A stretch of DNA of 64,000 nt from Enoplosus armatus. Its lineage: Eukaryota; Chordata; Actinopteri; Centrarchiformes; Enoplosidae. Where the stretch lies: positions 11,098,956 through 11,162,955 of the forward strand of contig NC_092182.1 of assembly GCF_043641665.1 (NCBI RefSeq). The letters are read 5' to 3'. Numbering within the stretch: the first letter of the stretch is position 1; the number at the start of each line of letters is the position of its first letter. Position numbers and translations under genes: made by a program. Shown in pieces: positions 5,399 to 57,200 of the stretch. A model generated the notes under the pieces. The model saw nothing but the letters and a program-made list of their open reading frames with translations, was not told where the DNA came from and ran no database searches.

Positions 5399-27548
<22,150 letters not shown>

Positions 27549-30904: not shown

Positions 30905-32150
30905 CTCCTCATGTAAGATTCAGTTCAATTCAATTTTATTTATATAGCGTCAAATCACAACAAAAGTCATCTCATGACACTTTACAAATAGAGCAGGTCT
31001 AGACCGACTCTTTATAATGTTATTACAGAGACCCAACAGTTCCCACCCTGAGCAAGGAAAAACTTCCATTTAAGCGGCAGAAACCTCGAGCAGAGCCAGG
31101 ACCACGATCCACAGGAACCTGCGAGACCAGAAAGCACAAGGAAACTCCGGGGAAGATATAAAGTTAGTAACATGCATTGGTGGGACATGAATGTGTAAAG
31201 ACAGAGAGGGAGAGGAGGAAAGCTCAGTGCATCAAGGGAAGTCCCCCAGCAGTCTAGGCCTATAGCAGCATAACTAGGGCCAGGCAGGCCTGAGCCAGCC
31301 CTAACTATAAGCGTTATCAAAAAGCAAAGTTTTAAGTCTACTCTTAAAAGTAGAGAGTGTGTCTGATTGGCGACTGCTTTCTCTAGGATCTTAGAGAGAA
31401 AGGGAGGGTTAGATATAGGTCTGGCAAAAACCTCTTCATCAAGAGAGGGCTTTTTGAGAAGGTAGGAATACATGGCTCAATAGAGCTGACTCAGCCTGGC
31501 TACAGTGCTGAAGAGAAACCTGAGGTTGTTCTTGTTCTCCTCTTTTAATGATGAGTAATAGGCTGCTCTGGCTTTACAGAGGGCCTTCCTATAAGTCTTG
31601 AGACTATCTTGCCAAACTAAGCGTGATTCTTCCAGTTTGGTGGAGCGCCATTTCCTTTCAAGTTTCTGCGACGTTTGCTTTAATTTGCGGGTTATACCAT
31701 GGAGCTGACTTTCTTTGTTTTATTATCTTCCTGTTTAGAGGGGCAATAAAGTCTAATGTCAGTTGCATTGAACTTGTGGAACTATCAACAAGATGATCAA
31801 TTTGGGAGGGACTAAAGTTAGCATAGGAGTCCTCAGTTACATTGAGACATGGCATTGAATTAAATGCAGATGGAATCACTTCCTTAAAGCTAGCTACGGC
31901 ACTATGGATATCTAGTGTAGGCATTTTTGTAGTCCAGTAATAGGAAAATTTCAACTCCATATGTCAGAACCAGGTCGAGGCTGAGATTAAAACAGTGAGT
32001 GTACACCCTGAAAGAAGCCGATTGAATCCAATAGTGAGATAAACATAGTACCAACGCTATCATTATGTACGACCACAGGAATATTGAAATCACCTGCAAT
32101 AATTACTTTGTCTGATAAAAACTCTGAGAAGTCAGATAATGAGATTCATG
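30905..32150 (-). mobile_element. Decayed L2/Maui-like non-LTR retrotransposon
   Basis: Read on the minus strand, 31960-32130 encodes an endonuclease-like stretch with VIIAGDFNIPVVV. This is followed by pieces with APLNRKIIKQRKSAPWYN and KALCKARAAYYSSLKEENK, and then by RPISNPPFLSKILEKAV, typical of L2-clade ORF2 before the reverse-transcriptase core. The element ends at 30905-31120 in the 3' tail also found at 15500-15715. The frames are broken by shifts and stops and most of the reverse-transcriptase core is missing, so it cannot move. Confidence 0.8.
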
Positions 32151-34801: not shown

Positions 34802-36516
34802 TCAAACAGAGGCCACTCTGTGCCGTTTAGAGGCCAGATATGTCTCAATGTAGTTAAACAGCAGATCCAGCTCGCCCATGGCCTTATATAGACCTTTACT
34901 CTCCATCTGTAGATAAACACATGGTTCACTTTATTAAAATCATCTGACGAAACACAAGCATGCACTTGTGTACACACTGTACATATTTTACATATTTTCA
35001 CAATTACAGATGAAATCTTGGCACTCACCTGAGTGTAAGTAGAGTTTAGGGCTCCTATGTCAAACTGTTTCTTGCAGGAGAAGTAATTTCTCTGTAAGAG
35101 GAACAATAGAAAGATGATGTTACCTCAGGGGTTACCAACTTCCATTAGACTGTCATGCCCTGAACCCCACCCAAGGATTTGTGTGCAGCAAATCAGAGGC
35201 AGAGCTCAGGACTGGAAACTCAGTGAGCAGCTGCATGCCCTCCCTTCTCTTCCCCTTTTGCAAGAACTGGATGATGCACAGTTATGCACGCTTCTGCAGT
35301 TTAGGAATCACTGACTAATGCAAAATTATGACCTGTCCTATGAGCCACCAGCAAACTCTTCCCTCTCCGTGGTGGTCAGCCATTTGCCTCATGTCAAAAA
35401 AAGTGTGGGGAATAGTTTGACAGTTTCTGGATGGTTTGTCTGTGGCAGACATGTTTCAAATTAGTGACAGCTAATCACATGTCTTCCTGAAAGGCATGAC
35501 CATGTGGTTGGCAATGCATGAAAACAGAAGCATATACATGTGTTTTATGAGCAACAATTCACCCTAATAGTCCACGTGTCCAAATTTAACAGGACAATGA
35601 CGCCAACGTTGGGACTTCATACTTTAATGTCCATTTTAATTCTGTTCCCCACTACATATTATCATATTATTATTATAATATAACAATATCCTATAACAGG
35701 ACAGGACAACAATATCATCTTAAACTACACTGAATGCTATAAAACTATATCGGAGGCTTAGGCGCAGTCGTGATGTGCCTGTTTACATCTTCATTGCGCT
35801 GCAGGAGTAACGTGGTGTGTCAGCTACTCACACATTCAGTGACATCACTCTTGAGCTCGTCGAAAATCTGCTGGATGGACTCCATGTGAGGCTTTAAGTC
35901 CTTGGTGTCCTCCGTCACCTCGGCCATGGCTGTCGGCAGAACCGTGCCCAGATAAAACTCCAGTAAGCTGTTCATGGCTTGGCAGGCAAACGGGCTCTGG
36001 AGGAGGGGGAAAGCACCAGCAGGTTACAAGATGCCGTTTAACTTTTTTACTGGTGTGCACGGGAGAGTTGAACAGGAAACTTACTTTAAATGAGTTCTCG
36101 ACGCTCTGGTCTAGCAGTGCTGTATCCAAGTCATTATTTGCTTCCTGCAAACAGGGGGGGAAAGCGTGAGCTCAGTGTGTCAGCAGACGCAGAGGCAGAC
36201 AGACAGGCAGACAGGTGTGAGAAAGTGCAGCATCACCTGGAGACTGGCAGGACATAGCCACATGACCACATGGGCGGTGGGAATCTACACAAATGATGCT
36301 GCACTAACTGTCGAGGTGCGTGCAGAGTGAAACGCTGGTGTTTGTACTCACATAGAAGTCCCTGATCTGTGAGTAGTCCTCTCTGAGCTTCTTTAGCCTG
36401 ACAGGGAAGCCCTCCACGAAACGGCAGCACCGGTTGTTGCACATGGGACTGCACCAGGCGGTGCTGAAGAAAGACAAGAGGACCAGGACGGACAGGACGA
36501 GAGACCGAGGAGTCAT
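34802..36516 (-). CDS. il10: Interleukin-10, 5 exons
   Basis: Exons on the minus strand are 36352-36516, 36085-36144, 35832-35996, 35029-35091 and 34802-34906. All introns are phase 0 and GT-AG, as in class II cytokine genes, giving 558 nt (185 aa). The start is ATG at 36514-36516; an in-frame TTG lies just upstream and is not used. Residues 1-22 form a signal peptide (VLSVLVLLSFFSTAWC). The mature chain has FVEGFPVRLKKLRE (helix A), SPFACQAMNSLLEFYLGTVL (helix C region) and the C-terminal family signature KGLYKAMGELDLLFNYIETY. Cysteines lie at 26, 30, 31, 80, 130 and 136. Those near 30, 80, 130 and 136 correspond to the two conserved disulfides, and the extra N-terminal ones are typical of fish IL-10. 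IL-10 is a secreted homodimer that signals through IL10RA/IL10RB and STAT3 to restrain inflammation. The gene lies tail-to-tail with mapkapk2, about 5 kb from its 3' end. Confidence 0.96.
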
Positions 36517-36642
36517 GCTGGTGGACAAGCTGCTGAAGACTGCTGGAGGTTGAGGAGAGAAGAGCGGTAGCCTCTGACTTCTGACAGGAGAAATCTTGGT
36601 AGGATGTTGCTGAAGTGCACATATTTGGGCTCATATCTTGTC

Positions 36643-36652
36643 TTAATATATA
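36643..36652 (-). promoter_or_regulatory. il10: il10 TATA box
   Basis: Minus-strand TATATATTAA lies about 127 bp upstream of the il10 ATG. This implies a transcription start near 36620 and a ~100-nt unspliced 5'UTR. The sequence similarity shared with the fusion locus stops at 36633, just before this box. Confidence 0.6.
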
Positions 36653-37419
36653 CCCAAACTAGGGACAGATAGAAGGAGGAGACTGACTGGAAGCGAAACG
36701 GTTAAACATGCTTCATACATGCGGGGGAATTTCTTTTTTAGAATCATGCATTACATATGAGCTGCTCCTCCCATGAGATAGGCTGGTACTATTGATAGAT
36801 CTCAAGATAATGAACTGTCAAGGAAAAACATCTGACATAGCACATATGGAATTTTGATATGACATAATTTCCTGTTATCATTGTTTAAGTTTTTAATATT
36901 ATTTTATAGTGTATATATACTATGAAATTCTGTAAAGTATATATATATATATATACTTTAACGTATTATTATTATTGTTATTATTATATTTTCTTTTTAC
37001 TACTTATTATCAGTGTTTGTACTAGTAGTAGTATCAATGACTACACATATCAGTCCCATACACAGTACAGTACAATAACATTGCCTTTAGCCTCTAAACT
37101 AGATATGGAACTTATAATAGATACTGCAAACGTGTTTGAAATTGCATTAAATGCTGTAAAACACATAATATTATTCCACAATTGGATTCACAATAACAGA
37201 GGAAATAGTGCCACCCAGAAGTTGGGTGGAAGAAGACCCAGAAATTGTGGTCTGAATTTAATGACGCTGTGGATTCTCTCTGTATGTCAGACATGCGTAA
37301 TAAGACTGACAAGAGTGACGGCAGGTGACACCGACTCATCCTTGCTTTTCTGTCTAAGTAGGTGATTGGAATCATGGTATTCTTTGTCTTTGCACATGCA
37401 TGAGCAAAACATATACATA

Positions 37420-37426
<7 letters not shown>

Positions 37427-37450
<24 letters not shown>
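37427..37450. repeat. Poly(A) tract
   Basis: About 24 consecutive adenines. This could be the tail of an old retroposon, but no body is recognisable beside it. Confidence 0.8.
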
Positions 37451-37451
<1 letters not shown>

Positions 37452-38798
37452 GAGAAGAAGTTGTTCGTGACTCGTAGAGGTGGCAGCGTAAGGGGTGTTT
37501 TCCGTTCAGTACTTTTTTGTTTCATGGAATGTCCACTTGTCCACAACTAATGTGTATCCGTCTGTTCAGGTTAAACGTTGTTTTAGCCCATTTTTGTTGG
37601 GCAACACTGGTATTTTGAAATTCCCAGTCATTATCTCTACATGATGAAGACTTCACAATCTGTGCCAATAAACTTCCAGATGGTTCAAGTTAAAGTTCAT
37701 TTACAGGATGATGCTTGTGTCATACTGAAGATGACACAGTGCACTTTTCACAAATTTAGGAATATAAAAACAAAGGTATGATACAGTGAGTACAACCGAG
37801 GCAACAAAGACAAATGTGGAAAAACAGTGCACCAATGCTAGAATAAAAGGTTCAACAAAAAGGTTTTGAGTCCATAAAAAGACCCTACAGTATGGAAGAT
37901 TTAAAATGCCTAAATTAAAACAAATCAAACAAAGAATAAAGTGAAATGCAGTATATATTGTAATTTGTATTCCCTTTTATGTATGCATTTACTGTGTAAA
38001 ACGACAATTGTTTTGCTTTTTGTCTGTAGTAATGGAATTAATTGTTTTTCATTGTGACATTCATTTTCCATGTAACATTAAAATCACGACACAGAAAACA
38101 ATGTGCAGAGGTGCATTGGTGTCCATTGGGTGACTATTTCAGTCGACATTCTCCTCCCCTTCCGCCATCTGCGTGTTCGCTGCATCCAGGACTTAGCGGC
38201 GCCCAAGGTGATGTGATTGGTTTAAAGAAAAACAAACAAGGCAGAGCTTTTTTTTCCTCTATACCAGAATGATGATGGATTCAGCCAACCTTTCTCCAGC
38301 ACTGGCACAGCACTAAAAGATGGCTATGGCTATATGAGATTATTGCAGATGCAATAATGAAATGGAAACACATTATTAATGCCAAAATGAAAAACAATCA
38401 ACTGTCCAATCAACTCTTGGGGTAATGGCCATTGTTAAAACAGTAAATACAAACAACAGAAACAAACAGTTCAACATGGCATACAAACTGAAGACAAAGG
38501 GAGACGGTGATGGTTTGGGATTGAGAGAAGAAAAAAACAGCAATGGTATCCAATTATTTTCCAGAGAATTCTGTAAATTGCGAAATCCAAAAAACACAAG
38601 ACAACACGAACTGCAACAATATGCATAAAATGAGGTGATTGTGCTTGTCCATACAAATTACAGGAATTATTCTGTAAATTGCTCAAAATGTAAATATATG
38701 TACATATATATACACATTAAAAGTATGTATGTATGTATATGTGAAGTTAAGATGAGACAGCAGTAACCAGTTTATGGGAAACCTCTCTAACACTGACT

Positions 38799-38829
<31 letters not shown>

Positions 38830-39199
38830 CATGCATGTCTGCTCTCTGCATTTAGCTGTGTGATTTCATGATTTTGTGTGGTCACAGTTGCATTTTAGAT
38901 GCTTCTGCCCCGTCTGCTAGGATTTCAGTTGTGGTTCTGTTTATGTGCCTCTGAGAGAGATTTTGAGTCTGCTATTATGTCATTTAGAGATTTTCATAAA
39001 GAAACTCATCTTTAGTCAGAACACATCTGCCTCACACACAAGAATGAATCAAAACCGGCGTACCAGAAGTGACCAGAGAAACTGCTGAGTGATATACCAA
39101 CATCACAAGTTAACAGGAGCAATGTGTGCAGTAGGGTAAGGGTTAGTTTAATTTAGCTACGTTTCTCAAACTCTATTTGCATCTCTTTCTCTTTTATAA

Positions 39200-40685
39200 T
39201 TTCTTTTTAAGAATACATTTATTTATTTATTTATTTATTACATTTTTATATACAACAGAGATCAAAACAGCTCAGACATGACATGACAAAAAAAATAAGT
39301 AAGTCAGTACAAGAAATAAAAATAAAAATAGTCGGCAATATATTCATCCCCAACCCTCTGCATCTCCTACAACATAGAAAGGCAACATCAAATAAATAAA
39401 TATGTAAACAAATAGCAAGGTTATTGGAAAACTGGCTTTGCAGTGGAAAAGGTTGAAAGACAGGCTACACCAATTTAGGAAACCCTTGAAGATGACAGCG
39501 TAGGTCCAATATGTTCTGAGTAAGGGGCCCAAACTTTATAGAAAGCATCCACTGAGAAGTGAAGCATTCATGAGATGTATTCATTGGGAATACACTCCAT
39601 AATAAGATTGTGCCAGACTTTTTTGTTGGAGCTTTGTTGAAAATATTCCGGCAGCAAAAGTCAATAGATTGAATAGCCTCTTGTGTTTTATATTTACAAT
39701 ATGACCATCTGGAAGACCAAGAAGGAGGCACATAGGGTCTAACTCTATTGGAACACCACAAATACAATTTAAAGTTACACTTACAGTGTAGATCTCCTAG
39801 CTTTGTTAACCCCTGGTTTTACCGTTCTTTAAAGCCCCAGTCTTGACAGCCTGGCAGAAAGTCCCCATCCAGAAAAGGAGTAAGAGGGGATGAACTGAGC
39901 ACAGGGCGCTATAGTACGGGTGGACCCCCAGGCTCTGACAGCGCTTAAAGTGATAGGGTTAGTAGTCATTAACAAACAACAGTTCTACAAAGGGCATTTG
40001 GACTGAGAGGATTCAATGTTGAGCCACATTGAGGCTGGGTCATATTTGAGCCAATCTGCTATCACCCGGAGCGGTGTCGCCAACTGATAGAGTCTCACAC
40101 TTGGTACATCTAAGCCCCCATCAGAGCCAGCCATTTGGAGTTTTGCCATCTTCAGTCGGGGCTTCCTTGTGCCCCAGATAAAGGAACTTAGACAATCTTT
40201 GAGCACCTTGATAACCAATGAAAAGGAAAGGGCTCTGACAGGCTTGGGACTGACGTTAGACAGACGTTGCTGAATTAATTTTGTACCCTGGAAAAGTGCC
40301 AAATGGCTCGGGTCAGGCAGGGAATAGAGATTTGTGGTCTTAAAAAATATCAACATGTCATCTGCGTGAAGAGTGACTTTGTACTCCCTCTCTCCAACAA
40401 GAATACCAGACATTGGAGCATTCTTCCTTATTGCCTGGGCCAGTGGCTCAGTAGCAACAATGAAGAGCAACAGGCTAACGTGTATATTTCCACAGTAAAG
40501 GGGAAAGTTACTAGATCTCAGCCCATTAGTCAGAAGTGCTGCTGTTGGATTATTGTATGTACTCTTGTTGTAAGAACCCTGACCCAATTGACAAAGTTAT
40601 GGCCAGCAAGGGGTCTAAGAGAATATTGTTAAACTCTTTATAAAACTCTCACCCAAACCCATCTGCCCCTGGAGGTGTATGCTTT
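39200..40685 (-). mobile_element. L1-like (Tx1/Swimmer-type) LINE, 5'-truncated and broken
   Basis: On the minus strand, 40690-40640 begins near PPGADGFG (the RT PGPDG-like motif). The 39985-40587 frame then carries LLFIVATEPLAQAIRKNAP and KVTLHADDMLIFF, the ADD catalytic motif. It continues with FIWGTRKPRLKMAKLQM, GGLDVPSVRLYQLATPLR and VIADWLKYDP, the conserved C-terminal part of L1 ORF2. Further remnants lie at 39465-39767. A TTTA-rich tail at 39211-39240 marks the 3' end. Frame breaks make it inactive. Duplication unit 2 is continuous across the matching position (about 45800-45910), so the insertion is younger than the duplication. Confidence 0.85.
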
Positions 40686-42739
40686 TTTGATGTGACATTA
40701 TTACTGAAACTAGTTTGATTACATTTTTAGTTCATAATCATGTGAGTTAGACGATCTGTTGATCTAGAGGAGGCTTCATATCAGCAAGTTAATGCTCGTT
40801 GTGCACTCAAACCAGTGATTAAGAAGTCAATGATATTTCTCACACTGCTTATTCTGATCAAAGTGTTTCCCTCAGTCAGCTCTACCAGGAACCAGTGCCC
40901 CCTCTCAATGTCCCGCTCACGTGCGCCTCCACAAAATGGGGCCAAAGCTGAATCAGTCAAATCTTATCTTTCATGTATCATTTTGCTGATCGCTGAGCAA
41001 CAGTCAGCACAAACGTCATCTTCTCTGGAGATGATCAGGTGCTAATGTGGTGAGATTGTCTCTTTGTTCTCTCTGGTTTTGCTCCCTCACCACCTAAACT
41101 CAGTTTCTGACGTTGTCACTAACCAGTGTTGCGATTCTGCAGTCAGCGATACTGCAGCACAACATGAAACCTGACTGTTGATATCATATCCAGGAACATG
41201 AATCACAACAGACAACCAGACTACATTGAACTGAAATAATAAATTGACAAAATGACAAAACCAGATGAGCTGCACAATGTACTGTAGTTTACATTTCCTC
41301 CATACTTATGCATGACATTGTGCTACTGAATAATGTACTTGCTGCCGTCTCTTTTAGAGGAAATCAATCTGTCTTTACAATAGATTCACCACATTCATCT
41401 TTCACTTTCACACAGGTCGTCTGTTTTACTGTGTGTGTGTGTGTGCGTGTGTGTGTGTAGCATTGAATCCTCCAGAGATCTGTTTCTGTTTTTTGTTCAT
41501 GTCGAGGGGTTATTGTTATGTGAACATAAATAATAGTAGTAAAGTGTGCGTGCCAGGTTTTTTAGTGTGCTCAATAAGGATACAAAGAAAAGAGGAAACT
41601 ATGAGAAATGTATATGAGCTGTCTCAGGGTCATTACAACAGGGTGACAGCAAACTGCCCGAGCACTCCCAAAGAATGCATGATGCATGAATGGGTGTTGT
41701 GACAAGTTGTATGACAGCTGATATCTGGGTGGGTGGATGCCCGTTTTGAGGTTTGTACAGAATGGAAAAGATTCTTGGAGTTTCATCGTTTCTTGTGAAT
41801 GACCTACAGAGACCCCTCTGAATTCCAGATAAAGTAATTTAGACTTCCTCCCACCATGGCAAATGTGACCTGTAATCTGGTTGGCATAACGCCCCTGTGG
41901 ATTGGAACAATTGTAAATCTGTGGTAGATTTTTCAACATAACTGTGATGGAAATTGGTAAAATATTAAAATATAGCATGCAAATATGAACTTAAATACCT
42001 TCTAAACAGATAACCAGACTTCCTCATGATCCTTATCATTTCTACAGAATTGAGTAAGCAAAATTAGATGAGTGTACTGCTGTAACCTGAAACTAGAATA
42101 GCCTCCTGTCCTTCTGCGGAGCAAGCATCTTTTCAGGAGGAGGTGAAACTTCAAAATTCCCTCTGAACACAGCGTTTGACCTGGACATTATCAGTGACGT
42201 AAGATTAAATTAGTTTAAGCTTTCCAATTCAATGAGTGATTGATATACTCCAGTGTGATGCTTCCAAAAGTATGACTCTTTATTCTCCGTACTGTTTTTA
42301 TCTGTTTGGGTGCAAGTGCGTAAGCACATGCGTGCATATGGCCATTCGCATATGTGCCACTGATGGTGTTAACCACATTTATGTAAGCAGAGCTCATTGT
42401 GACAGCTCATATTTTCCCATGATGTTCAAACATCTGAGTGCTGAATTAGTGAAAGTTAAAAATAACAGTTTCTTAGTGCAATTTAAATGATGAATCACAG
42501 TTTCATTGTTTTTTTATTCATGTTAATTTGGTTCTTAGTCTGCTGATGCTCAGATGTGAAGCCATGTAGAACCTGGTGTGTGTGAAGAAATGAAATGAGG
42601 AGATATAACCCTCATGGCCAATCATCATCATGCTGCTGCTGCTGATAATAATGTTGGCTGTGTTACGCCCACCTGTATTGGATAAAACAGTGTTTTCATT
42701 GATCACCACTAGAGGTTAATAATGCAGAGCAGTCATCCC

Positions 42740-43290
42740 TTCTGCTGCACTCTTTGTAGATCTGTCCAAGGCTTTTGATACTGTTGATTATAATATTTTA
42801 TTAAATAAGCTGTTTTTCATTGATGATTCTCCTTACATCTGGTTCAAAGTTATATCTCTCTGGAAGCTGATGGTTGATCAAATTCCCAGATGGTTGTTAA
42901 AGGCATCCCACAAGGATCAATAATGGGCCCCTTGGTATTTACTATATACATAACTTTTTATGCTGACGATAACATCTTGTATGCCAGATACTAAACGATC
43001 TACTCCGGGTTAGGCTCCTTTTGCTGCCATTATCACAATCATGATAGTGAGTTTTAAGAAAAGGCTGGATGGTCGCACTGCATAGCATCAGCATACCTGT
43101 GTTTTCATGTATGAGGCCTTGCTATCTAAGTTGCCAAGATATTTAACATCCTTAGTTGAGTTCAGAGTGAACAACCATGACACCCTATCACAGAATAACT
43201 ATAAAAGTCCCTCAGACCAACTCTGGACTGGGAAAGACTGGTTTCCAGTCATTTGCACCTCACTACAGAAATAACTAACTAACTAACAGT
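42740..43290 (+). mobile_element. LINE reverse-transcriptase relic
   Basis: In-frame pieces read LFVDLSKAFDTVDYNIL, then KGIPQGSIMGPLVFTIYI, then the catalytic FYADDNILYA (around 42955-42980). These correspond to RT blocks of an L2/CR1-type element, with internal deletions between them. The relic ends in a short (TAAC)n tail at 43276-43288. It lies where the similarity between duplication units 1 and 2 stops (42735). Confidence 0.8.
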
Positions 43291-44034
43291 ACGTAGTTGA
43301 AGATGGTATGAAAGAAAAAAAGAAAAGAAAAAATTTTTTTTTTTGGAAATTAAACAATTTGTTTAATGTGTATGACATTAAGTATGATATTACAGACATG
43401 TTGCAATGGTACAATAATAACAGTAAAACTCCTCAACAGCTTGCTATGTGCAATAAATATGAATACATTTAAGTTGTGTAAATAAATGAATAAAAATAAC
43501 ATTAATAAAATAAAGCCACTTTGCCATTTTCCTGTCTGATTTTGTGTGTTTCTGATATATACAGTAATGTAGTATTTGAGCCAGCATTAAAATTATTTTA
43601 GACTGTTATATATATAATCTATGATAAGTTTAATAAATTGTAGGACACTCTGAACCCTAAATAACATCCTAATAGATGTGGTTGCTGTGTTTGTGCAGGT
43701 GACATCTTTTTCTTTTGAGATACTATTAAGTAATCCCTGATATAATTGACAAAATGAAATATTCCCAACAAAAATGTTGTGTGTCTGTGATTTAGTTATC
43801 AAATATCCATAACTGCTTAAAACGAATGAGATTATCATTACAAAAAAGAAATAAATGACTCCGTAGCACCCTCTGGCTGTCAGTTGTTATTCAATATACT
43901 ACAGTACAAACTTAGCCTGCAGGTGTGTCCTCTCCACACAGCTGAGCACATTTATTAATTCAATATAATGTCTGTCTTTTATTAAAACACATTCTATTAT
44001 TAAGCAGCTATTTTACATATTACTGCATTTCATT
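43291..44034. other. Sequence 3' of the fusion ORF
   Basis: AT-rich DNA in which I looked for il20l exons 4 and 5 and found neither. Minus-strand AATAAA motifs at 43978-43983 and 43951-43956 could terminate a fusion transcript. Confidence 0.5.
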
Positions 44035-44040
44035 GCTGGA

Positions 44041-44750
44041 TTAACCTGTTAGTGGGCTCAGGGCAAATATTTGGTGATGTGCCACCTTTGACCCCCCACC
44101 TACCGCACTCAATGCAATGACCCTGGGGAATTTTTGGGACCCTGAAGGTTTGGGCCTCTGGGGCATTTGCCCATTTTGCCCTGATCCAGCCTTGATGTAT
44201 ATCTCTACTGATGCTGACAAAACCTTGGGCCGAGTGCTGATGAACACTCTCTCTATGTAGAAACGCAGCACGAGTCGCAGGAAACAGCGTGTCTGACCCT
44301 CCTGATGGAGACACATAAAGGTCAGATTACAGCAGCTCTCACACATTCATGTTACATACTCATATACTGTTTATAGAGCCTTTAGCAGTCTGTGACTTAG
44401 GTCAGAGAAATATTCAAAATTTTAAACAAAAAATCTGGATAGAAATTACATAACCAGCACTGCATGGTAAAAACAAGAGGAGGACTGACCTGAACATCCT
44501 TCATCAATGATTTGTCCAGAAATTTCACTCCAATCTCAGTGTCTCCTGCTATCTCAATCAATGGGGTCATGGGTAAATTATTTACATTGTAGTCTGTGAT
44601 CTGGGAAGAGTCCTCTCTGAGCTTCTTTAGCCTGACAGGGAAGCCCTCCACGAAACGGCAGCGCCGGTTGTTGCACATGGGACTGCACCAGGCGGTGCTG
44701 AAGAAAGACAAGAGGACCCGGACGGACAGGACGAGAGACCGAGGAGTCAT
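44041..44750 (-). CDS. Chimeric il10/il20l fusion ORF at a tandem-duplication junction (new gene or pseudogene)
   Basis: Two minus-strand exons, 44490-44750 and 44041-44301, are separated by a 188-bp intron with GTCAGT donor and CATCAG acceptor. They join to 522 nt (173 aa). Residues 1-55 copy il10 exon 1, including the signal peptide and helix A. Residues 56-66 are an in-frame linker from the breakpoint. Residues 67-87 copy il20l exon 2 (IAGDTEIGVKFLDKS), and residues 88-107 copy the start of il20l exon 3 (EGQTRCFLRLVLRFY). A 34-bp deletion then shifts the frame. The last ~65 residues are non-cytokine sequence ending at TAA 44041-44043. Compared with its sources it has L11R in the signal peptide, C30R, and Cys to Arg in the exon 3 CC pair. 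il20l exons 4-5 are missing. The gene order is that expected from unequal exchange between il10 and il20l introns. The open frame favours recent origin or expression; the structural losses favour a pseudogene. Confidence 0.7.
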
Positions 44751-44867
44751 GCTGGTGGACAAGCTGCTGAAGACTGCTGGAGGTTGAGGAGAGAAGAGCG
44801 GTAGCCTCTGACTTCTGACAGGAGAAATCTTGGTAGGATGTTGCTGAAGTGCACATATTTGGGCTCA
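44609..44867 (-). repeat. Near-identical copy of il10 exon 1 and 5' leader
   Basis: These 259 bp differ from 36375-36633 at only two positions by my count; both change amino acids. Neighbouring duplicated blocks are visibly more diverged. The upstream edge is abrupt: il10 continues to its TATA box, whereas this copy joins DNA matching 37860-38010. Confidence 0.85.
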
Positions 44868-46246
44868 GGCTTTGAGTTTGTTCTTAAAATGAACCTACAG
44901 TATGGGAGATTTAAAATGCCTAAATTAAAACAAATCAAACAAAGAAATTAAGTGAAATGCAGTATACATTATCATGTCTATTCCATTTTATGAATGGAAG
45001 TACTGTGTCAAGAGGGAATACAGGTGACATCTACTAGTCTTTGGTGATTGGAGTCATGGTATTCTTTCTCTTTGATGGGGTTTGCATATGAATCTTTTTC
45101 ATACATTACACATGGGCTACTCCTCCCATGAGACTGGCACAACTGACATAGATCTCAAAAAATCCCACAGGCCGCACGATGGGGAAGCCCTCAGGTCAAC
45201 AGGGAGGCTGTTACATTTGTTAGGAGTCAAATGGTTGAAGGCTGGTTGTCTGTATATTTGTGGTCTGGGATTAATCAAGATGACAATTAATAAATATCTA
45301 CTGTACGTGGACGCCACAGAGGTTTGTTCTATGTAAACTAATGTTTAATATGTGCATTTGTGTTAGTCTCTATGAATGTCATCTCCTTTGCATTTAGCTG
45401 TGTGATTTCATGAATTTGTGTGGTTTAGTTGTATTTTAGATACTTCTGTCTGCTGATATTTCACTTGTGGGTTTGTTTATGTGTGTATGTGGTCTTCATT
45501 GAGGTCTTCAGACAGCAGACACAGAGCTGGGGTGTCATGAAAGTATGAATATTTTATCAAATCAAGTGTTATGATTTGTTACAGTGTGTTTAGTACAATG
45601 AAAATAACTAAGTACATTTACTCATTTACACATTGTTGCATCAGTATCAACAATATAATGATATATCAGCCACAGTGGGCATTCTCCTGCAGAACGAATA
45701 CCTGTTTGTCAAGATGCAGTTTCAGGTTCAGCACTGTGAAAACACATGTGACCACATGTCATCTTTCAAAGAAGATAGTTTAATTTAGCTAGAACTCTCT
45801 AGTTAAGTTTAATTTCTTTGTCATTTTATGTTTAACAGCAAAGTGAAAAAAAGAGACAGAAATGTCCTGTTGTTCTGCTAAATAGCAGACAGAGAGGTTG
45901 AGGTTCCTGTTTTGTTTGATGACATTACAGAAACTAACATGATTTGATTTGTAGGTCACTGAGTTTTGAGTTAGAGGACGGGATGATCCAGTGAAGGTTT
46001 CAGGCTTCATATCAGCAAGTTAATGTTCATGGTGCATTGTGCCAGACTTAATTTAACTTCAACTTAGTTTAGAAGGTCATAACCAATCATGCTGCTGCTG
46101 CTGCTGCTGCTGCGAATGAGGATGATGATGTTGGGCGGTGTTGTCTTCAAACACTGTGTTTATATTTATCACCACTAGATGGTAGTAATGCAGAGCAGGA
46201 AACACTCGAAGTTAGTAGGTAAGAGTATTTTTTATTTTTTTATTTT

Positions 46247-46627
46247 TTTATTGATGATGAAAATAAACCATTGGTAAACCATTTCTTTAGTCTGCATAAT
46301 AAACTACAGTAGGAGCACACATACAATACCTTAACAACTTTCTATTTTTGATCCATATAAATACTTAAACAGTTATGTCCATTATAAATATCTTATCAAA
46401 ATGTCTTATTATAAATATCATATAAAAAATAATTTTGTCCACATGTCAGTGAATAACACACACACATACACACATTAAGTTAATTCAAGTAAAAAATAGA
46501 GAAATGCTAAATGGCACAGAAGTGAAGTGAACACATTTCTAACCTTCACTCTGCTTACAAGTAATGTCAGGTCAAGAGTTACATCTTTTGGTGTGAGCTT
46601 GGGGACTCATCATCAGCGTCTGTCTGA
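46247..46627 (-). promoter_or_regulatory. il20l: il20l 3'UTR with AU-rich elements and poly(A) signal
   Basis: Minus-strand ATTTA pentamers occur at 46507-46511, 46412-46416, about 46384-46388 and 46358-46362. An AATAAA lies at 46247-46252. The spacing fits a ~0.37-kb 3'UTR of an unstable cytokine mRNA. Confidence 0.65.
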
Positions 46628-48074
46628 TCACGCTGTTTTCTGGCCGAGTCCCTCCAGCCACTCCAGCACTGTGTCCAGTTCTCCCACGGCCTTCTGTGCC
46701 GCCTGGTTTGCTTCGAGCTGCTCAGAGTGACGGAGTAAGAAAACAGAGAGAGCAGTGGATTTAATGATGAGCACAACTGTAGAGAGGCAGTTTTCTGTTG
46801 CTTTGTCTTGTTAGAGTGAGTCAGCTACTGCTGAAGTGTTTGTGTAGAGTCACATCTTGCAAGCCCATTTAGTCCGCCACATAATATGTTCCATTAACCC
46901 TGCTAAATGATTCTGCCCTCAACACCTTGGCAAAAGTTAATTATATCATTTTATTTCCCCACCTATCTGGATATTCAGCCAAAACATTTAAGATAATAAA
47001 AGATTCCACATAGAATATTTGTGAATTGGACATCAAACGTAGCTCAAAGCATCATTCATTTGTACAAGTGCTCTCCTCCAGCACCGTCTGCAGTCCACTG
47101 TGAGAATGTGGGACATGGAGAGATGTTTATGTTCAGAGAATATTTGTTCTGCAAACTACATACCTTGTTAAACTCAGCATGCAGGGAGTCAACTGTTCTC
47201 TGTGTTTCCTCTGCACAGTGGCAGTGCTGAACACAACGAAGCACAATTATTAATACAACTTACTCATGTTTTTAATGGAAACACACAATGTTCATCATTG
47301 GACAGCTAACTTACACATTTGTGTATATCTCTCCTGATGCTGACAAAAGCGTTGGCCAGAGCGCTGGAGGAGCGTTGCTGCTGAGAGGAGGCATAGTTGC
47401 TAAACACTCTCTCAACGTAGAAACGCAGCACGAGACGCAGGAAACAGCACGTCTGCCCCTCCTGATGGAGACACATAAAGGTCACATTGCAGCAGCTCTC
47501 ACACACTCATATTATACACTCATACACTGTTTATAGAGCCTTTAGCAGTCCGTGGCTTAGGGCAGAGAAACATTCAGAATTTGAAACAGAAAATTAGGGT
47601 AGAAAGAGCATAACCAGCACTACATGGTAAAAAAAAAAAAAGAGGAGGACTCACCTGAACACCCTTCATCAATGATTTGTCCAGAAATTTCACTCCAATA
47701 TCAGCGTCTCCTGCTATCTGTAATGCAAATACCACAGAGACAGTAAGCATCTCTCTTAAATTTCTGCAAGTTTCCATCCACTCAAAGGTGTCATAAACAG
47801 TGTTTGCTGTGAACAGTTTCTGATACTGATAAAGTGATTGCCTGTGTCTGCATGTCATGTCTTATTAGGATTCATTTTGAGTTAGTGGTTCTGTGTGCGT
47901 CTGTATTAAACTCACCGCATTTGATCGTATGGCAGAGTAATATTTGCGCAGTTCGTGCGTGTGAACGTTGACAGAGCAGCTGTCCAGATGCAGAGTTCGG
48001 CTCTCCACAAGTTCACTCAGACTCAGGAGGAGCAGGAGGAGGGAGCAGCCGAGCAGCATCTTCATCATCATCAT
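46628..48074 (-). CDS. il20l: Interleukin-19/20-like cytokine, 5 coding exons
   Basis: Coding exons on the minus strand are 47916-48074, 47655-47717, 47315-47461, 47164-47226 and 46628-46717. All introns are phase 0 and GT-AG, giving 522 nt (173 aa). The chain starts MMMMKMLLG with four possible in-frame ATGs; a hydrophobic signal peptide (LLLLLLSLSELVES) precedes RTLHLDSC. IL-20-subfamily features follow: QTCCFLRLVLRFYVERVF with the CC pair, KCHCHCAEE, and the C-terminal KAVGELDTVLEWLE signature. The CC and CHC cysteines favour IL-19/IL-20 rather than IL-24. Related cytokines signal through IL-20R-type receptors to STAT3 in epithelia. The gene follows il10 in the same orientation, as expected for the teleost il10-il20l pair (named il19l in some species). 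Confidence 0.92.
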
Positions 48075-51504: not shown

Positions 51505-54208
51505 CTAAAGGACAATAGAGTGGAGATGTCTGAAGCACATGATGACATCCAGAGGGATGGGGGGGCCTATGTGATTTCCGTCCAAGCGCAGATACCTGGC
51601 GTAACAGAACAGGTTCTTAATTTAATGTCATCACAATGACTTACATAATTATTTTGTTCCTATGTACTTCCTGTCAAAGGGTGCCACTGTGCAAATTTGT
51701 ATTGTTGAGTGCCAAGATGTGACGTACCTTAGTCTGGGTATCAGACTGTCATCGCTCAGTTCGGCCTGCAGGCTGGATGGGCAGATCAGGGTGCCATTGA
51801 TGCCTGGAGGGAAAACACACAGTGAATGTCTGGTGCTCAGTGTTGTTTTCCTTCAAACAAGCCAGAATAAAAAAAATCTGCCAAGTGAATAGGATTATTT
51901 TGTCTTGTTTATAATACTAATCTTTTAATCTTGGTGACTTAAAACAAGGACGGGATAAAAAAAAATGGCAAAGAAATGGGGTCACGCAGTATAGCAAGAA
52001 TAAAACAAGCCAGGTTGAATAAATTACAGACAAGACAACGAGGAGAAATTAATAAAAGGCAATTATCATGGAAACGCATCACATTAGGATTCATTAGCAT
52101 GTTGTTGACTGCGAGCCTGAGACAAAGCTTTGCAGCCCTGTCAGCAAAAACTTGTTCAGTTCCTCGACACAGTAATACTCTTAACAGAGCATGAAAAGCA
52201 GTCTGCTGGCTCAGACAGGAAAGTAAACATGAACCAGTAACAGAATCATAGATATTTTTATGAAGTAAGATTATCTTGGTGTTGGTGTCCATCGTACTTC
52301 AACATTATATGATTAGTTCCCAAAACATCTGAGACAAATGTGGTAGATTTTGTGGTATTACATGTATTTCAGTTGTCTTCATTTAGACCAAACCAATGTG
52401 TTGAAACAGTGTACAACAGTTCATGATTGTCTTAAATTCATCATGTTTCAACAGACTATGCTGTAAAGTGCTAACCCCAATCCAGGTGGGGTTAGGTCTA
52501 AATTAATATTTAAAAAAAAGGCAAATATAGAAGGTTAAAGCTGCATTAATCATTTCTTGGCCACTGGGGGGCAGAAGAACTCATGGTGGAATTATGAGAG
52601 CAGTCAGTGTAAATCAAAACAGTAAAAGTGTGGATGTAACATCAAAACAATGAGCTGAAAAACGCTAAAACGCTCAACAGAACTCAGTTGAACTGCTGAG
52701 TCGGAGGAGGTTCTCTGTGGCTTCGTCATTGCACGTCAGTAGTCACTTAATCCATTGTTAAAATATTGATTAGGGCAGCTTTTAGTACACTATTTACAAT
52801 GTCTTGTAAAGATGAGTGTTGTTTCCATGTATTATGTAATTGACATATTTCTGCCACCTCTCACAAAATCCTTAAGATGGTGCTGATAACTTACTCTCGA
52901 TGCTGTTGTGGTTGAGGTGCAATTGCTCCAAGTGACCGTTGAAGAAAGGAATAGAGGAGAGCTGGTTGTGGGACAGTTGCAGGTCCAGCAGGGTTGGTAT
53001 TTTGAACACATTCTTGGGAACTCCTTTATCACTCAGCTGGTTGTAGTTCAGCCTCACAAATGCCAGGTGAGTGAAATCTTTGAAGTAGTCTCTGCATAAG
53101 AAGAAGAAGAACAATAACTGTAAAATTTTACATTCAACCAGTGTTTGATGATGCATGCAGTGTGCGTATATATACATGTGTGGTCATCAGCTATGTGCCA
53201 AGGTGTGCCACTGTATACTTGCTTTGGGATGTCGTCTATACTGTTCCTGTCCAGGAAAAGCTGTATGATGCCATTTGGTACGCCACCAGGCATCTTTTTC
53301 AGGGCGTTGTGAGCCACATTGAGCTGCATCAGGCTCTTCAGGTCCTTAAATGTGTTCTTTCCCAGGTCACTGTCACTCAGCTGAAAGAGATCAGACACTC
53401 ATGTTTGCTCCAGAAAGGCATATAGGTGGTTGACACTGCTCATACCTAAACAGCACAATGTAGTAAGATGCTCACAAAGGCACTTTTCAACAAAGGTTTA
53501 CCTGGTTGTGGTACAGGTCAAGCAGAGTCAGGTTCCCCATCTTGCTGAAGGCACCAGCTGGGATCTTGGAAATACGGTTCCTACCGAGGCGGAGCTGTTC
53601 TAGGCTTGCTGGGAGACCAGAAGGGACCTCTTTCAGCTGGTTACGCTGTGCATAGAGGTACAGCAGTCCTGGGATCTTCTCAAACACCTGCACAAGAGAG
53701 ACATACAGAAAACACAGTTTTAAATGGCTTCATGGTATTTTCAAATCATGGATATTAATCAGGGAAGCTTTCTGACCTGTTTGTTTATTTGATGAATGCG
53801 GTTATTAGCCAAGTTGATCCAGCGGACCTCAGTGGCGTTGACAAACGGCTCTGCATTCACCTCTGAGATGTAGTTGTTCTGCAGGTACAAGTAGTGGGTT
53901 CTCGATGGGATGACAGGGACCACACGGATGTTCCGGTTCTCACAGTTGAGAGAGTTCGGATAGTTCGGGGAGCATAAACACTCCCGCGGGCAGTCAGAGA
54001 ACATGGAGGGTGGGCCCAGGATGGGTGGGGGGAAGTCTGTAGGCTCCTGGGGCTCTGGCTGTGCCGGTACAGCAGGCCGGGGGACAGAAGGCTTCCTGGT
54101 GGTGGCAGGTCGCCTGGTGGGCTTCTTTGGCCGAGTTCTCTGGGTGAAAACTGCCCCCATCAGGAGGAACAGAGCCAATGCAGAGAAGAGTCCCACGCCG
54201 GCCTTCAT
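51505..54208 (-). CDS. prelp: Prolargin (PRELP), class II small leucine-rich proteoglycan, 6 coding exons
   Basis: Minus-strand coding exons are 53777-54208, 53502-53687, 53223-53380, 52895-53091, 51728-51803 and 51505-51595, totalling 1140 nt (379 aa), close to the mammalian ~382. The start ATG (54206-54208) follows a CATAG acceptor by 4 nt, so an upstream non-coding exon exists. A signal peptide (1-22) precedes an Arg/Lys/Pro-rich heparin-binding N-terminus (24-44). The Cys cluster at 73-89 fits CX3CXCX9C, the class II signature. Leucine-rich repeats follow (LYLQNNYIS, LEQLRLGRNRIS, LLDLYHNQ, LAFVRLNYNQLS, LLDLQLSHNQLS), then the C-terminal Cys pair (LICPSS, IMCFRHL). PRELP links heparan-sulfate matrix to collagen. 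Intron 3 uses a GC donor (GCAAGT); GT alternatives break frame and conserved spacing. An in-frame open stretch upstream of the ATG is intronic. Confidence 0.94.
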
Positions 54209-57200
54209 GGTCCTATGACGGAGCAGGAAACAGAGGTAGTTGATTCGTTTAATAAAAAGTTTAATAACAGGAATACATGTACATTGGTCCTTTTTGTGCT
54301 TCTTGTTCTGTGTGGAAGCTCTGGGGCCGTGCTGAGTCTCAAGTGTGTTCAAACCCTGTTTCCTTGATTAGCAGGCATTTAGAGGCTCAGTGCAGACCAA
54401 GACACTGAAAACGTCACTAACCAACTACGTGTATTCGCCTTTCGATTGTTGTGAAAACACGGAGAGTGTAAAACTGTAAACCAATATGTTCAGCAGTCTG
54501 CTGCCTGCACTTTTATTTCAACTTGAAATATTGCTTCCTGATGCTGCTCTTACATAAGTGGAACCTTTGTTATTCATGACATCTGTGTCCTGTTGAGATG
54601 AAAATAATTAAGATATGTACACTAAGACAGTCTGTCCTTCATAGCTTCTATAACTGTGAGAGCAAGAAAAGTATGTTAATGAATGCTGTGAATCGAGCAG
54701 TTACTGTCATGATGTCAATGTGACAGAAATTGATGTTATTCCAAATGAAAGATGGGGCTTTGTGGCTTGGTAATATAAGTGAAAGAGAGTGAGCAAGAAA
54801 GTCAGCAGTGATTTGTTCAATTTGATTAAATTCAAGAGGAGGAGGGGCAGATACTGATACAGGAAATTAGTACTTATGAGAGAGAGGGAAGGAAAGGTTT
54901 TGGGATAAAGGCTCTATTGTCAGCACTGGCCCAGAGGGAGAGCTGTGGAGGGGAAAACTGCAGGTCTGGAAGGTTAAGGCTCTTTGACCCAGGAGAGGCC
55001 CAAAGGAAACTGGGCTAAATCCCAATGAGACTCTGATGGAGGCAATATGCATCTTTTAAACCATGGTAAATACAAAAAGTTTCTGCTTTGCATATTTTAG
55101 CATGTTGATGGTATAAGGACTCAGCCAAGAGATACCCAAGAGTTTGAACTGAGCAGAGGGGAGGTAAGGTGTGTTCTGTAATTGATGACTTTTTAAAAAT
55201 ATGTTCAAAAACAGATGTGTGCAACTTAAATCGGTTGAGCTCCTTTGTGTGTACAATGTAATGACGCCATCAGACTGAGAGGCTGAAAGATACACACACA
55301 GATGCAGATGTTTGACTTAGCATCACAAGCATTTACCCTTCAGTGGAGATAAATTCACTTCTTGTATTTTGATCCTAAAGTTTTAGATTTTATTCAGAAT
55401 GCCTGTTTGTGTGCATTTGCTTCTTTGCACTGTGCATTGGACCTCATCAGCATGAGCCTGCTGTAAATAATCCCCACACAGCTGTCAAAATACATAATGC
55501 TCCACCACAAATGCACCATTAGTTTCCAATCACTTTGCTCCAGTTAGGCAAGCCTCAGGCCAATTTGATAAACATCACATATGAATCACGGGGCAGGAAC
55601 GGGGCCCAGAGCCAGAATCTGTCCTGCTTGGAAAAACAAATCTGAACTTTTCTCTGACAGCGTTCCCTGGCACTGCCCTTCCTTTTCCCTCTCAGCCACC
55701 CAGAGCCTCCCAGCCCCTCGTTCTCCTTCCCCTCGTGCTGCAGTTGCCCTGACCAGCAGTCTGGCAAACAACTAAAGACTGAAAGTCAGAGATGGCTGAC
55801 TCATTGGTTTGTTATTTGTGACCTCGATAAGCAAATCTGATCAGCATGAGAACCACACTCATTGCAATGGGTCAGAGATCCCTGTACAGTAGTACATCAC
55901 CTCATCAGACACTGATCACATTCACACTACAGATGACTGTAATTCAATTAGCCCAGCCATTATTCACTAGTTATCATTTTTATTATTATTTATTATTTTT
56001 CTTTTTACAATTTGACTTTAAAACCAAAAATGATAGTGCCATTTAATTGGGTCCTCCTCAAGGGCCATTTAGTAGGTGTCCTGGAGCTTTCAATCATATT
56101 ATTGCTGGATAGCAGATTCCACAGATTCCATTGTCATGGAAATGCAGGATTACAATTTTACAATTCCTTTTGTGCAATACAGCTGTCATGGACAAGAATC
56201 ACAATTCAATGACATATTGACAAACTACATCTGCTGATGAAGCTCATGTGATATGTGTGATATGATTGAAAGCCCCAGAACAGTTACTAAATGGACATAT
56301 TGGTTTTTATAAAGCTCATTGTTACCACAAACTCCTTGATGATGAGCTCTCTCCAATTCACTTATTTTCTTCTTTTGGCAGACCTGGCACTGTCATTCCT
56401 TTAACCGAAAATGATCACCACTGTTTAGAAAGACCACTAAAAAAGCCTTGAATAAGAGCCACGTCATGCACAGCACAATTCAGAAATCTAACTCGGTGAC
56501 TAATCAACACAATTACAAAAAACCTCCAAATAACATTGATGATGATAGATGTGATGTCATACAAATAGCAAATCTTCTTATGACTCATCTCTGTGTATCT
56601 AAAACACAGTAATGGGCAGATATACTTCATGTGAAAACTGTGTGGGATACATGCACTGGAAATAGAGAAGTGTCTGCCCTACTTTTGAAACCCTCATCAC
56701 CAGCAGATATTCTGCATTAGTATTACAAGATTGCCAAAACATTTCCTCATGCGGGTGGGGCTGTCCTGCAGTGGCTGTGCAAAGACTGGATCTACATTTA
56801 TGGTACGTCAATCTGGATGTGAGGTGAAGGAGTCAAAAACAACTTATAAATGGTTTAATAAATTAAATAAATATAACTCAATATAAGAACTGAGAGTATA
56901 AAAACAGAACTCTGTTCTCCTGTCATCACTGCGTCTTTGTCCTGATCATCATCCTGCTCAACCTCGATCTATTGTTTTCCTTTTACATTCTTTACAGACT
57001 TCACAGAGGGATTTTAAAAGTTCAACCCTCTTACAAAACAGTGATTCATCATAGCCTGTGATTTTTTTTTCCTCACATTTCCAGATCCATTTTCAGTCTT
57101 ATTTTGGCCTTTGGTCAACACCAATCCAGCAATATGATCCATCAGAATTGATTTGTAATGACAAAATGGTTTCAATTACAGCTTCACTGCAGAGTAAGCA

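Follow-up and report, generated by a model that had tools for sequence, protein, structure and literature searches.

A 173-codon open frame on the minus strand of Enoplosus armatus contig NC_092182.1 begins as il10 and continues as il20l, which raises the question of whether the locus encodes a working chimeric cytokine or is the remnant of a duplication. Within the window, i.e. the whole stretch of 64,000 nucleotides that was analysed and whose positions are used throughout, the frame is a fusion lying between a whole il10 and a whole il20l; its il20l part is disrupted, and its two halves have diverged from their parents to very different extents. We consider it most probably a non-functional chimeric (unprocessed) pseudogene, the start of which was probably converted later by il10.

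Both parent genes are intact. il10 (34802..36516, minus strand) has five coding exons specifying 185 aa and matches Pfam IL10 (E 1.4e-27); its best PDB match is IL-10 (E 1.3e-25). il20l (46628..48071, minus strand) also has five coding exons, and its 172 aa match IL-20 (entry 4doh) best in the PDB (E 2.8e-28) and Pfam IL22 (E 4.4e-08). Exon 1 ends in phase 0 in both genes, with a length of 165 in il10 and 156 in il20l. According to the excerpted text of PMC4929537, the IL-19, IL-20 and IL-24 genes cluster with IL-10, and the teleost homologue is termed IL-20L in trout. When both parents were compared with the whole window by tblastn (E up to 5), the single hit beyond the two genes and the chimera was an il20l match at 643-699 (E 0.2).

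Other features were also noted in the window. A frame at 24803-25276 (plus strand) contains a piece of mapkapk2, a usual neighbour of il10 (PDB MAPKAPK2 match, E 3.2e-08), and two leucine-rich-repeat frames lie upstream of il20l at 53057-54367 on the minus strand (PF13855, E 3.7e-06 and 1.8e-05; one of the LRR_8 matches is at and the other below the curated cut-off). Of the 82 stop-to-stop frames with a length of at least 95 aa, 20 were compared with Pfam, and three of the 20 match, namely: the two LRR_8 frames and one kinase piece, which is below cut-off. In addition, sequences of about 200 bp at 15510-15712 and 30918-31099 form an inverted pair with 85% identity, perhaps a dispersed repeat, and sequences of about 78 bp at 22279-22356 and 23770-23845 form a direct pair with 97% identity.

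The fusion frame runs on the minus strand from the ATG at 44750 to the TAA at 44043-44041, and its translation yields the 173 open codons given in the preliminary description. In exon A (44490..44750, minus strand), translation and alignment assign codons 1-55 to il10 exon 1, codons 56-66 to a stop-free 11-codon linker (VNNLPMTPLIE) that joins it to il20l exon 2, and codons 67-87 to the 21 codons of that exon. The predicted intron, with its donor GTCAGT after 44490 and its acceptor CATCAG before 44301, is likewise present as first described and is a copy of il20l intron 2 (44302..44489, minus strand; 12.2% mismatches to the parent). It retains GT and AG, and the donor, which is GTGAGT in il20l, has changed to C at +3, a weakening by splice-site rules of thumb. 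If the splice at 44490 is not made, a stop codon at 44399-44397 ends the frame after 117 codons. Exon B (44041..44301, minus strand) had been taken to be in frame with il20l exon 3; this holds for its first 20 codons (88-107), after which come a net 34-bp loss, a frameshift and a tail of 66 codons (108-173) that are unrelated in frame and end at the TAA. The il10 homology extends over 284 bp (36350-36633 against 44584-44867, 96.8%, E 1.9e-134) and the il20l homology over 317 columns (47403-47719 against 44243-44554, 88.3%, E 2.3e-114); judged by these alignments, both are far beyond chance.

The fusion had been ascribed to a tandem-duplication breakpoint, an origin that is borne out by the intact parents, by intron-1 remnants of both genes in the linker and by blocks shared between the spacers. 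The linker (44553..44585, minus strand, 33 nt) is composed, according to its sequence and the splice-site table, of a residual il10 intron-1 start (GTAAAT) and a residual il20l intron-1 end (TTGAG). A comparison of the spacer 5′ of the chimera (44868-47400, the end of il20l included) with the one 5′ of il10 (36634-44040) shows eight shared same-strand blocks at E 0.01 or better, of which six are collinear (the chance of at least six collinear among eight is 0.022), and a reversed control of the same comparison gave zero blocks. The other two (45043-45158 against 36744-36805 and 37361-37392) are out of order, one of them near the il10 start; the latter block (45099..45158, minus strand) is 80% similar to the proximal upstream sequence of il10 at 36744-36805 and its distance to the 5′ tract exceeds that in il10. 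The shared blocks span just 615 of the 2533 bp of the shorter spacer, and from this sparse coverage we infer that the duplication is old. The locus has the features of a chimeric duplicate, i.e. two genic donors, intact parents and a duplicated spacer, the last with two of its eight blocks out of order.

The similarity of the spacers supports the placement of both duplication breakpoints in phase-0 first introns. An old tandem duplication would thus have begun in il20l intron 1 and ended in il10 intron 1, leaving both parents whole and placing the 5′ end of the il10 copy ahead of exons 2 onward of the il20l copy. An alternative in which a piece of il10 exon 1 was recently inserted into a fragment of il20l was also considered; it was rejected because the divergence of the last nine codons, the remnant of the intron and the similarity of the spacers speak for an old duplication.

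The il20l part shows extensive damage. Its exon 3 copy carries the net 34-bp loss and the frameshift relative to il20l, and of the 66 among 173 codons that are not in-frame homologous, about 49 lie in an insert absent from il20l. The insert (44035..44190, minus strand; about 156 bp, limits approximate) has GCTGGAT...ATCCAGC ends and an inner inverted match of 12/13, and is probably a transposon-like element; no further copies of it were found in the window. Beyond it, a weak local alignment with il20l resumes and takes in the exon-3 end, intron 3 and exon 4 (43525..44028, minus strand). This match scores 132.5 against 112 for the best of 300 shuffles (0/300 as good), a result that applies to the whole stretch and not separately to exon 4, the match to which has gaps. 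In a search of 36634-44240 with il20l exons 4 and 5, the best E was 0.17, and the best for exon 5 was 0.26. With exon 3 truncated and out of frame, exon 4 a remnant at best and exon 5 undetected, the chimera does not specify the complete five-exon helical bundle, and it combines frame-disrupting changes with lost exons relative to its parent, as pseudogenes do. After the duplication, the il20l part would have decayed through the frameshifting loss, the insert, the erosion of exon 4 and the disappearance of exon 5 beyond detection.

The il10 half, in contrast, has diverged from its parent far less than the il20l half has from its own, a difference that had gone unremarked and that points to later gene conversion. 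Compared position by position, a 258-bp tract (44610..44867, minus strand) has two mismatches to the 5′ non-coding sequence and exon 1 of il10 (36376-36633). The 117 bp before the ATG and the approximately 33 silent sites of codons 1-46 are all unchanged, and both differences are non-silent and radical; past the tract, the last 27 bp of exon 1 carry seven mismatches. The tract differs sharply from il20l intron 2 (2/258 vs. 23/188, P 1.2e-7), and, at the intron-2 rate, the probability that some 150 sites, silent or non-coding, all stay unchanged is 3e-9, or 8e-5 if the chimera lineage alone changes. It should be noted that the limits of the tract were set after the mismatches had been seen; a permutation of the longest clean run, which is free of this choice, gives P 0.011. 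Silent divergence in the tract is far below that of its flanks, the pattern expected of gene conversion, with limits drawn post hoc and the permutation P of 0.011. Purifying selection on the protein was rejected as the cause of the 258-bp identity, given the presence of two radical changes and no silent ones.

We read these data as a recent gene conversion of the fusion start from il10, the direction being probably from il10 to the chimera because both differences are damaging in the chimera. Such a later conversion would have replaced the start of the fusion with about 258 bp from the 5′ sequence and exon 1 of il10, which would explain why this start still looks fresh. The exon-3 end and intron 3 (22/90 mismatches plus gaps) are more diverged than intron 2 (P 0.014), and the il20l part (44243-44554 vs. 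47403-47719), being less diverged than the intron 3 that follows, may be a second, earlier conversion tract. Pseudogenes that exchange sequence with a functional neighbour by gene conversion are known from CYP21A1P/CYP21A2 and GBAP1/GBA1. As in those pairs, a tract shared by a dead and a live neighbour is far more alike than its surroundings; the fusion differs in having a single clear short tract, the direction of which is read from damage rather than from an outgroup.

The near-identity could also reflect selection at the DNA or RNA level in place of conversion, with a non-coding RNA or leader fragment transcribed from the il10 start region. The 117 unchanged bp before the ATG would suit such a transcript, as would the il10-like proximal upstream block at 80%, but the near-identity extends over 46 codons with two radical and no silent changes and ends inside exon 1, which is expected of a conversion tract, and the upstream order is rearranged. 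We regard this alternative as very unlikely.

The preliminary description had proposed that the fusion, if transcribed, could yield a secreted decoy or a dominant-negative fragment, and this proposal found no support in the analysis. A transcribed chimeric gene yielding such a secreted truncated protein would have in its favour the 173-codon frame, a start codon and 5′ sequence in common with il10, and the retained GT-AG intron. The damage described above counts against it, namely: the frame that is gone after 20 exon-3 codons, the insert, the eroded or undetected later exons and the altered +3 donor base. Moreover, an L11R change in the core of the il10-derived signal peptide lowers the 9-residue hydropathy peak from 3.42 to 2.50. 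C30R removes a cysteine whose il10 counterpart aligns with Cys12 of human IL-10. In the CC pair common to IL-19 and IL-20, the first Cys is replaced by Arg in the fusion (CC to RC); human IL-24 carries Ser at this position. C26, C31 and the second Cys of the pair are kept. Compared with teleost il10 and il20l, from which its exon 1 and its exons 2-3 derive, the chimera thus lacks two cysteines and most of the il20l part past early exon 3. At the level of sequence only, the TATA-like box of il10 (TATATATTAA at 36652-36643) is not retained at the corresponding place.

The chimera finds no Pfam family at E 1, whereas both parents match the IL10 or IL22 models, and it has no PDB match at E 1, whereas the parents match solved IL-10-type structures. 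These misses are partly due to the shortness of the parental pieces; in pairwise alignment, 66 residues of the chimera still align with il10 and 41 with il20l.

The openness of the frame argues only weakly for selection. In neutral simulations, the 42 il20l codons stay open in 76% of cases at 6% change and in 60% at 12%, and the linker is open in 45% of mononucleotide shuffles. The tail is open in 4% of such shuffles (P 0.04), a post hoc figure for a segment with about 49 of its 66 codons in the insert. Mismatches to il20l are found at 11/126 sites in exon 2 together with the first 63 bp of exon 3, compared to 23/188 in intron 2 (P 0.36), and the coding sequence thus shows no clear sign of constraint; the test is a weak one, and its final one or two codons border on the loss.

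Tandem-duplication chimeras in Drosophila yakuba often change expression, which also speaks for a transcribed chimeric gene: in the excerpted text of PMC5460883, 24 of 76 are upregulated (tissue aggregate) compared to 5 of 66 whole-gene copies. The fusion resembles the chimeras described there in having its breakpoints in neighbouring same-strand genes, with the parents preserved and the 5′ part of one gene followed by a downstream portion of the other; it differs in that its copy looks old and decayed and is known from its sequence alone. Among the titles and abstract openings found, a coverage that leaves out most subscription journals, none describes an il10-il20l fusion.

On balance, a transcribed chimeric gene encoding a decoy or dominant-negative fragment is very unlikely. 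A working regulator, in which the converted il10 start region drives a transcript and its short product or the RNA itself disturbs signalling by il10 or il20l in this fish lineage, is just as improbable. An assembly artefact, i.e. a misjoin or short-read polishing that pulled the chimera start toward il10, is suggested by two near-identical stretches 8.2 kb apart, but it is the least probable explanation, since a simple misjoin should leave the copies near-identical throughout and the il20l half, the spacer blocks and the post-insert match are diverged copies in consistent places.

Counted against the pseudogene reading were the 173 open codons, the tail P of 0.04, the retained GT and AG, the remaining cysteines, the Ser of IL-24, the short pieces behind the Pfam and PDB misses, the permutation P of 0.011 and the two of eight blocks out of order. 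With these weighed, the fusion still appears to lack function.

Taken as a chimeric pseudogene, the fusion is in our reading a small, clear example of a chimera formed at a tandem-duplication breakpoint and then partly rewritten by the live gene next to it. A practical consequence is that any il10 primer, probe or guide RNA designed on the 5′UTR or exon 1 would also match the fusion in Enoplosus armatus. For il10 itself, conversion in the reverse direction could bring the damaging changes of the fusion into the functional gene.
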